Part shown: positions 40,979 through 42,854 of the stretch, one piece after another
Layout: the number at the start of each line of letters is the position of its first letter
Position numbering within the stretch: position 1 is the stretch's first letter
Assembly: GCF_000970045.1 (NCBI RefSeq)
Contig: NZ_CP009505.1
Coordinates: forward strand, 496,001 to 560,000
From: Methanosarcina sp. MTP4
GTDB lineage: Archaea > Halobacteriota > Methanosarcinia > Methanosarcinales > Methanosarcinaceae
Length of the DNA: 64,000 bases
Direction of reading: 5' to 3'
Program-made: the position numbers and the translations under genes
The notes under the pieces: model-generated
Databases searched by the model: none
What the model saw: only the letters and a program-made list of their open reading frames with translations
What the model was told of the DNA's origin: nothing

Positions 40979-42064
40979 TCAATCTTCTTCTTCAGATCCT
41001 ACTGGCTCTGCCACCTGAGACTGGGATATGGCGGAGTTGGCTTCCGGAGCAAGGCTCGCCTCTTTTGTGAGAGCGGCAATCAGACAGCCTCTGGCAATTG
41101 CGTAGATCGGATCTCTGGAGTCGCCACCGTTTGAGGAGCTTATATACCTGGTCTTCCTGACGCTGGAAATCCTTATCGGCAGGTCTGCTTGTGCCAGCCT
41201 CTTTTCAAACATATCAACAAAGCCCTTGGCCCTGGTGCTCCCGCCGGCGATTGCGACCTGGAACTCTGCATCAGGAGGCGCGGTCTCGGAGAGTTTGCGC
41301 TTGAGGTGCTGGAGGACATAGGTTAAGAGGGCATCGTAGTAGACGGCAAGGGCTCCCTGAACGCTTCCGATCTCGTACTGAGATCCAATGGCGAAGTCCG
41401 TCTCCTTTATTGCGGTGATCCTTTCCTTTGCCATCCCGGTTGCGATTGCCACCTGTTCGTCTATCCAGTCGCCGCCGCGGGCAATGCTGAAAGAGACAAT
41501 AGGGGTTGCCATGTAAGCCACGGTGACGTTTGTCATTCCGGCCCCTATGCTTACCCCGACACCGGTGAAGTTGGATTCGCTGAGGTCGGAGTAGACCACT
41601 GAAAGTCCTTCATCGATCAGGTAAGTGTTGTAACCTAGCTGCTTTGCAAGTGCCTCTACGGTTTTGCTGTGGTAGAGCACATTGAGCTGGTTGTCCACGG
41701 GGTTTGCAGGGACGGAAATGTACGCGATTTCACCCTTCTTTTCAGGAGCTCCAAGTACCCTTTCGATGATAACTTTGATCATCGAGATGGATTCCTTTTC
41801 CTCGGGGCTGATGATACCTTGCTTCATAGGTCTTCTGATGCTTTTGTTGAAAACATTGGAAAACTTGAAGGCATCCTCCCCCAGGATATTAAGGTTGTTT
41901 CCTCGGTGGGTGTAAAGTACCTTTCCATTGTCAAGCATGTGCTTTGTCAGGTCGTTGGATTCCATTTCAAGGAATGCATTTCTCTGTTGCGCAAAGGAAA
42001 TCGAGCCGTTCCCTTTGTCCGCACAAATAATGTTCATGGTTCCTACATCAAGTCCTTTAGCCAT
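40979..42064 (-). CDS. Actin/MreB-like ATPase
   Basis: A 361-residue ASKHA-fold protein with actin-family motifs: phosphate 1 MAKGLDVGTMNIICADKG, connect region SIARGGDWID, phosphate 2 GVGVSIGAGMTNVTVAY and adenosine motif VAIAGGSTRAKGF. The phosphate-2 motif normally starts with Asp (DIGGGT); here it is SIGAGM, so the Asp is Ser. The C-terminus ends in an acidic low-complexity tail. Its ATG overlaps the end of the upstream membrane-protein gene by eight bases. It could form filaments, or act as an ATP-driven switch. It does not match crenactin or MreB closely by eye. Confidence 0.8.
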   Translation of the reverse strand: MAKGLDVGTMNIICADKGNGSISFAQQRNAFLEMESNDLTKHMLDNGKVLYTHRGNNLNILGEDAFKFSNVFNKSIRRPMKQGIISPEEKESISMIKVIIERVLGAPEKKGEIAYISVPANPVDNQLNVLYHSKTVEALAKQLGYNTYLIDEGLSVVYSDLSESNFTGVGVSIGAGMTNVTVAYMATPIVSFSIARGGDWIDEQVAIATGMAKERITAIKETDFAIGSQYEIGSVQGALAVYYDALLTYVLQHLKRKLSETAPPDAEFQVAIAGGSTRAKGFVDMFEKRLAQADLPIRISSVRKTRYISSSNGGDSRDPIYAIARGCLIAALTKEASLAPEANSAISQSQVAEPVGSEEED

Positions 42065-42854
42065 TTTTGTGCCTCTTGAACATCTTCATTTTACTACTGA
42101 ATATGCCTTTCTTATTGCTACTTTGCGTAGCCGGATCTGTATTGATGGCCTGAGCAAGCAGCATTGATGCTGAATCAAGCCCATCATCGCTAACTTTTAG
42201 CTTTCCGCTTCTTGCAAGCCGCAAGCTTTCAACTTCTGAAATGTCGTCCTTGACAACAATCCTCTTTTCTTCTGAGTCAGTAAGTGCTTTTCCGAGAATA
42301 AAGTCATAATCTTCTTTTTTAATTCCCAGGTCAAAACTTGAAAAACCGTCTCTTTCGGATAGGGATTCTTCAAGGGTTCTCTGGACCTCTCTTTCGATCT
42401 CTTCTTCACTATACTTCTGCGTATTTTCGGCTTTCTTCTCAAAAAGTTGTCTTGCTCTCTCTTCAATCTGATTCAAAACCGAGTTCGCAAAGGCGTTTCC
42501 TGCGAGCAAGCAGGTCCCTGCGACATAGGTGCCTGCTACGTAGGTAACGTTTGGATAGTGCCAGCCGCCGGGATAGAGCATAAGAAAAGCTCCTACCCCT
42601 ACAAAATTGAGGACAAGCCCTCCTCCAATCACATAGTAGTGGTACTCCTTTGGTTCCTTGATCATCAGGTTAATACCTGTAAGGATGAGGGATAATCCTA
42701 AACCCATGGAACTATAGGTTACGATCACCCCCGGATCAGATCTAGTGAGGTGTACGGAGAGAGCATAAACAATGCCCGCTAACGCCAGAAGAAATCCTGA
42801 AAGCATGGTCACAGACGAAAAATAGTGGCTTAATTTTGATTTCATCGTATCCAC
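42057..42854 (-). CDS. Membrane protein co-encoded with the actin-like ATPase
   Basis: A 265-residue protein. Four hydrophobic segments (about residues 14-34, 44-62, 74-93, 104-122) lie in the N-terminal half. The C-terminal half is charged and cytoplasmic, with a helical ERARQLFEKKAENTQKYSEE stretch and further acidic parts. The tail ends in Lys/Met-rich SSKMKMFKRHKNG. No family is recognised. The overlap with the actin-like gene makes co-translation likely, so this may be its membrane anchor. The start is GTG at 42854 or ATG at 42845. Confidence 0.7.
   Translation of the reverse strand: MDTMKSKLSHYFSSVTMLSGFLLALAGIVYALSVHLTRSDPGVIVTYSSMGLGLSLILTGINLMIKEPKEYHYYVIGGGLVLNFVGVGAFLMLYPGGWHYPNVTYVAGTYVAGTCLLAGNAFANSVLNQIEERARQLFEKKAENTQKYSEEEIEREVQRTLEESLSERDGFSSFDLGIKKEDYDFILGKALTDSEEKRIVVKDDISEVESLRLARSGKLKVSDDGLDSASMLLAQAINTDPATQSSNKKGIFSSKMKMFKRHKNG

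Follow-up and report, generated by a model that had tools for sequence, protein, structure and literature searches.

Introduction

In living cells of the haloarchaeon Haloferax volcanii, volactin (VolA, HVO_2015) assembles into dynamic filaments, which grow and shrink and touch the membrane by their tips; its dynamics have been likened to those of ParM, and the factors that bind the filaments are described as unknown in the available part of the report (PMC10869688). Salactin from Halobacterium salinarum (PF25229) is a further archaeal actin from the same phylum. Two other systems offer a parallel at the level of organization. MreB is an actin homologue that is accompanied by the membrane proteins MreC, MreD and RodZ, and the layout of the mreBCD operon of E. 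coli is comparable to that of the locus described here. The ParM/ParR system has dynamic filaments with engaged ends, the adaptor ParR being a soluble DNA-binding protein. A literature search found nothing in print, within sources that were available in part, on a volactin or actin–membrane system in Methanosarcina or other methanogens; the same sources yielded no mention of a membrane partner of volactin and no paper on the membrane-domain family DUF7139 (PF23600).

Here, we describe a gene pair from the methanogen Methanosarcina sp. MTP4 in which an archaeal actin of a known family is accompanied by a membrane protein that is so far undescribed and seems to be its obligate companion. The pair lies in a window of 64,000 nucleotides, which is the whole stretch of DNA that was analysed. 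A first-pass annotation had proposed an actin-like ATPase coupled to a membrane protein with four transmembrane helices and knew of no described cytoskeletal system of such a form in Methanosarcina. The literature search, as far as its sources extended, agrees with the latter statement, but the actin is of a known kind, namely a volactin.

Results and discussion

Organization of the gene pair

Both open reading frames were found at the positions given in the first-pass annotation, with the partner gene upstream and the volactin gene downstream on the minus strand, and their eight-base overlap was confirmed (Table 1). The AAGAGG motif that precedes the volactin start codon is a possible ribosome-binding site for this gene. 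Comparison with five relatives gave dN/dS values of 0.06–0.08 for volactin and 0.13–0.21 for the partner, showing that purifying selection acts on both genes. A scan for promoters and terminators, in which the promoter model was of the bacterial type, returned counts near those of shuffled sequences.

Table 1. Features of the volactin–partner locus, with positions in the window and residue numbers of the encoded proteins.
Feature	Position	Strand	Basis
Volactin-family actin-like ATPase gene, 361 aa, ATG start	40979..42064	minus	PF25216, AlphaFold2, tree
DUF7139 (PF23600) partner gene, four predicted TM helices, 265 aa, GTG start	42057..42854	minus	PF23600, AlphaFold2, topology
Overlap of partner stop and volactin start, 8 bases, ATGGCTAA on the minus strand	42057..42064	minus	sequence
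AAGAGG inside the partner reading frame, 7 nt before the volactin ATG	42072..42077	minus	sequence
Partner: predicted membrane domain, residues 2–122	42489..42851	minus	AlphaFold2, hydropathy/topology
Partner: predicted cytoplasmic tail, residues 124–265, volactin-specific part	42060..42485	minus	tail-only alignment A3
Partner: conserved tail helix, residues 150–170	42345..42407	minus	alignment A1, AlphaFold2 model
Volactin: phosphate-1 motif GLDVGTMN, residues 4–11	42032..42055	minus	alignments
Volactin: Glu152, at the alignment position of the LIEEP-loop Glu in MreB	41609..41611	minus	43/43 volactins, E. coli MreB alignment
Volactin: phosphate-2 motif GVSIGAGMTNV, residues 170–180, Ser172 replacing Asp	41525..41557	minus	alignments

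Identity of the actin homologue

The volactin profile PF25216 matched the 361-residue protein with an E value of 4.9e-108 and 361.9 bits against a gathering score of 35, and the match covers residues 1–331 and the entire profile (1–321 of 321). The MreB_Mbl profile (PF06723) gave 30.9 bits (E value of 1.6e-7), only just above its broad cut-off of 27, which indicates kinship with MreB without membership of the narrow family; TIGR00904 scored 28.2 bits, far under its cut-off of 365.75. Membership of the FtsA family was likewise rejected (PF14450, 19.3 bits against a gathering score of 31.8), and neither salactin nor the Hsp70 and sugar-kinase families gave a match in Pfam at E ≤ 1. The other matches to the MreB profile in the host genome are two Hsp70s.

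In a tree of 31 rows, which comprised volactins, salactins, MreB and Hsp70, the window protein lies inside the starred volactin clades (support of 100/99 and 100/95). The salactins form a clade of their own (100/98), a split with 97/92 support separates the volactin and salactin side from MreB and Hsp70, and the Hsp70s of the host lie elsewhere in the tree; the base of the volactins is blurred by two long-branched volactin-like giants. The protein is thus on the volactin side and not with Hsp70 (tree) or the sugar kinases (Pfam), the groups named as alternatives in the first-pass annotation.

An AlphaFold2 model of the protein (mean pLDDT of 82.9, pTM of 0.81) was closest among solved structures to MamK (PDB code 5ljv_A; Z of 25.2, r.m.s.d. 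of 3.3 over 294 residues), followed by the BeeR filament (PDB code 8r2n; Z of 24.8, r.m.s.d. of 3.6 over 301 residues), with actin, FtsA and Hsp70 a little below; rows with Z values within 1 of one another are to be read as tied. A search of PHROGs gave one weak match. Profile match and tree position together place the protein in the volactin family, a group of archaeal actins. The assignment to the actin-superfamily ATPases made at first pass is therefore upheld by PF25216, the structural neighbours and the tree, but an undescribed kind of actin it is not, because volactin is already known from H. volcanii to form dynamic filaments, as stated in the available part of that report (PMC10869688).

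The host differs from H. volcanii in being a methanogen whose genome contains no match to the salactin profile at E ≤ 0.001, so that the functions in cell shape seen in Haloferax (rod to disk) need not apply to it. H. volcanii itself scores above the salactin cut-off in a profile search; this may be volactin itself scoring, and the accessible part of a 2025 paper calls volactin the only identified actin homologue of that species (PMC7617734). Volactin-like domains with degenerate active-site motifs were also observed fused to long coiled coils, in one protein of 1040 aa or more (L121, 1–3121) and in one of 775 aa that has a C-terminal hydrophobic stretch (L122, 1985–4312); a second volactin-like match of this type is present in 11 genomes of a 392-genome sample.

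Active site

The actin motifs recognized at first pass are present, with the phosphate-1 motif GLDVGTMN, an Asp-Glu-Gly that matches the Glu loop of MreB and the adenosine-side GGS. The replacement of the phosphate-2 Asp by Ser, to which the first-pass annotation had attached a change in hydrolysis, is real but is common to the whole family. Ser172 and Glu152 are each invariant in 43 of 43 aligned volactins, which were picked for spread and include haloarchaeal members, so the serine is a family trait and not an oddity of the window protein alone. In a wider alignment all 23 regular volactins have Ser at the phosphate-2 position, whereas E. coli MreB and both Hsp70s from the host genome have Asp and two volactin-like giant proteins have other residues. 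The three salactins aligned have Asn here and thus share the lack of the Asp, but they differ from volactin in having Lys in place of the phosphate-1 Asp as well as in forming their own clade.

Loss of the phosphate-2 Asp might be taken to mean that the methanogen actin does not polymerize and acts instead as an ATP switch recruited to the membrane, in the manner of PilM and PilN, and both PilM and FtsA do appear among the Foldseek matches to the volactin model. Against such a switch, which we regard as improbable, the Ser is equally invariant in haloarchaeal volactins, one of which forms filaments in vivo according to the available part of its description (PMC10869688), and sequence profiles put MamK and MreB at the top for the window protein. 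The growth and shrinkage of the H. volcanii filaments recorded there imply that Ser at this position is compatible with a dynamic polymer.

Membrane partner

The first half of the partner matched DUF7139 (PF23600) with an E value of 2.4e-9 and 37.4 bits, above the curated cut-off of 30, and the profile was matched at E ≤ 0.01 by 43 of 44 aligned partners. DUF7139 is, however, a wider membrane-domain family, within which the tail of the partner marks a volactin-linked branch. Hydropathy analysis (window of 19, cut-off of 1.3) gave four transmembrane segments in 40 of the 44 partner homologues and three in the other 4; among these 4 is the partner from the window, in which the fourth helix is weaker and stays under the cut-off. 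Positive-inside counts indicate an N-in/C-in arrangement in 39 of the 40 four-segment homologues. The AlphaFold2 model of the partner (mean pLDDT of 74.2, pTM of 0.53) contains helices at residues 2–36, 42–63, 72–93, 102–147 and 150–170, of which four are in the membrane region, the fourth running into the tail as far as residue 147. Beyond residue 170 the tail is mostly disordered in the model (pLDDT of about 45–60). The partner is thus predicted to span the membrane with four helices, to have its two termini in the cytoplasm and to carry a charged tail that is helical in part. Two features noted at first pass, the four helices and the long charged cytoplasmic half suited to tethering, are borne out in this way by the model and the homologues, the latter also by the C-in topology.

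A Foldseek search of the PDB with the partner model returned no match with E ≤ 0.001, and the best match of the partner profile in a PDB sequence search was to a 112-aa hypothetical membrane protein (E value of 0.0069). In contrast to the MreB system, no Pfam match to MreC, MreD or RodZ was found on the partner at E ≤ 1. The tail is weakly conserved in sequence (mean column identity of 29%) and therefore displays no clear binding motif; a pattern for a C-terminal hydrophobic–basic helix fits all 44 partners and is too loose to carry weight. Of the two genes, the one for the membrane protein is the less usual and represents the stronger finding.

DUF7139-type membrane domains were also observed in other architectures. 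Five loci from Methanosarcinaceae (L026, L031, L036, L037 and L137) encode proteins of about 507–627 aa, in open frames of up to 675 aa, with a CHAD domain that was detected by Pfam in L037 (E value of 1.1e-48) and is seemingly present, by eye, in the other four. A 943-aa protein (L138, 1912–4743) has the membrane domain followed by eight DUF1508 stretches.

Fusions of this kind, to CHAD and to DUF1508 repeats, are what one would expect if the domain served generally for input or docking at the membrane, and the partner might accordingly be a sensor or assembly regulator that responds to tension, curvature or envelope state and steers the turnover of volactin from the membrane, rather than a mechanical anchor. 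The accessible part of the volactin report allows that polymerization is perhaps regulated by binding factors yet to be named (PMC10869688). No recognizable sensor domain is present on the partner, however, and the data do not separate regulation from anchoring; we consider a sensor or regulator of this kind, in place of an anchor, rather unlikely.

Genomic context and co-occurrence

In a survey of 80 named loci with volactin, 70 carry a homologue of the partner, always upstream of the volactin gene and in the same orientation. Among the ten loci that lack it, L052, L069 and L074 extend no more than about 100–260 bp upstream, and the others, one from Natronomonas (L073) and six from Halorubrum, contain no partner within about 4 kb upstream. 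The two genes overlap or are spaced by a few bases in 15 of the 16 loci from Methanosarcinaceae, the 16th being L052. In other clades most gaps range from some tens of bp up to about 200 bp; a few larger negative values come from the choice of the longest frame, and one locus (L078) has a gap of 862 bp. At another, a gene that appears by eye to be of the TnpB type lies between partner and volactin (L083, 2502–3752). An 844-aa frame at L090 was rejected as a natural fusion of the two proteins: it crosses a frameshifted partner, the remainder of which is in another frame. No third gene widely common to the loci from Methanosarcinaceae, ANME-type archaea and haloarchaea was found, in a neighbour-gene count that takes in spurious open reading frames of GC-rich DNA.

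Among 111 genomes from Methanosarcinaceae, intact volactin was detected in 25, and the genomes with a full-type partner adjacent to it, in one case cut by a contig end, are exactly these; two further genomes hold volactin remnants only. Broken remnants were observed in L127 and L126, from the Methanosarcinaceae genomes G103 and G010, and are signs of loss. In G103 the syntenic site retains a broken piece of volactin and the partner is absent, which suggests co-loss of the two genes.

Across a sample of 392 genomes from the phylum, full-length volactin is present in 88 and the partner, as detected with the partner profile, in 87 of these, adjacent in 76 and unlinked in 11; the sequence of the single exception begins 263 bp upstream of volactin, at a contig end. 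The unlinked genes are separated by long distances or located on different contigs, nine of the 11 cases belong to one genus (g62), and the surroundings of one unlinked partner gene, read by eye, revealed nothing telling. The full partner profile also matches weaker DUF7139-type proteins in other genomes, and its margin is narrow, since the best match in a genome without volactin (1.2e-24) comes close to the weakest true partner (1.4e-27). A profile of the tail only (alignment A3) is therefore the cleaner test. It matched 85 of the 392 genomes, once each, all of them among the 88 with volactin, and none of the 304 without. It missed three volactin genomes, namely the one truncated at the contig end and two divergent cases, G136 and G386, in which the tail scores below threshold and the membrane half is adjacent to volactin. 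Fisher P values for this co-occurrence overstate independence, because the sampled genomes are related. In six genera of mixed presence (g5, g8, g62, g111, g78 and g49) both genes are present or absent together. Conservation of the pair, proposed as a check at first pass, is thus extremely strong, and these distributions indicate that the partner is apparently an obligate companion of volactin.

Distances in the trees of the two proteins are correlated, with r = 0.96 over 73 pairs and values within groups of 0.98 for Methanosarcinaceae, 0.78 for ANME-type and 0.77 for haloarchaeal pairs. The pair from Methanohalobium groups with the ANME-type pairs in both trees, and that from one genome of family f9 (G154) groups in both with Methanosarcinaceae, apart from its two f9 relatives. 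These placements depart from kinship in the same way in both trees, and the pair therefore appears to have moved between lineages as one unit. Such transfers, and the tight linkage in Methanosarcinaceae, are what might be seen if the genes were mere fellow-travellers in an operon with no functional tie. This we consider highly improbable: retention of both genes in 11 of the 88 volactin genomes despite the absence of linkage speaks against hitch-hiking, and a tail without volactin occurs in none of the 392 genomes.

Functional implications

We propose that the two genes probably encode a membrane-anchored volactin filament system of two components, in which the DUF7139 protein would serve as tether or regulator and bind volactin through its tail. 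By analogy with volactin from H. volcanii, the methanogen protein would bind ATP and polymerize into dynamic filaments, with attachment of the filament tips to the membrane and a role in cell shape as further features that may be shared. The partner would be held in the membrane by its four helices, and its cytoplasmic tail would engage volactin, as suggested by the exclusive co-occurrence of the tail with volactin; such binding would place, nucleate or hold filaments at the membrane. Translational coupling would match the production of the two proteins in Methanosarcinaceae, where their genes overlap or abut. We infer, in this work only, both that the partner is an anchor and that its tail binds volactin, and anchoring, nucleation and regulation are not separable from sequence. 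Since its tail is found only in volactin genomes of the 392-genome sample, the DUF7139 protein is nevertheless the prime candidate for the link between volactin filaments and the membrane. This candidate adaptor differs from ParR in being, by prediction, an integral membrane protein.

A bolder version of the proposal, to which we would give somewhat less than an even chance, casts the DUF7139 protein as an integral anchor and as the first receptor for an archaeal actin in the membrane, its tail catching the ends of volactin filaments to form a tip-anchored cytoskeleton. If true, such a system would be common to haloarchaea, some methanogens, ANME-type archaea and a further family with small genomes, and would be unrelated to MreC, RodZ or ParR. 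The occurrence of the pair in Methanosarcina adds methanogens to the haloarchaea as hosts of the volactin cytoskeleton, and the question of how volactin meets the membrane at its tips gains a named gene family for testing, in organisms with good genetics.
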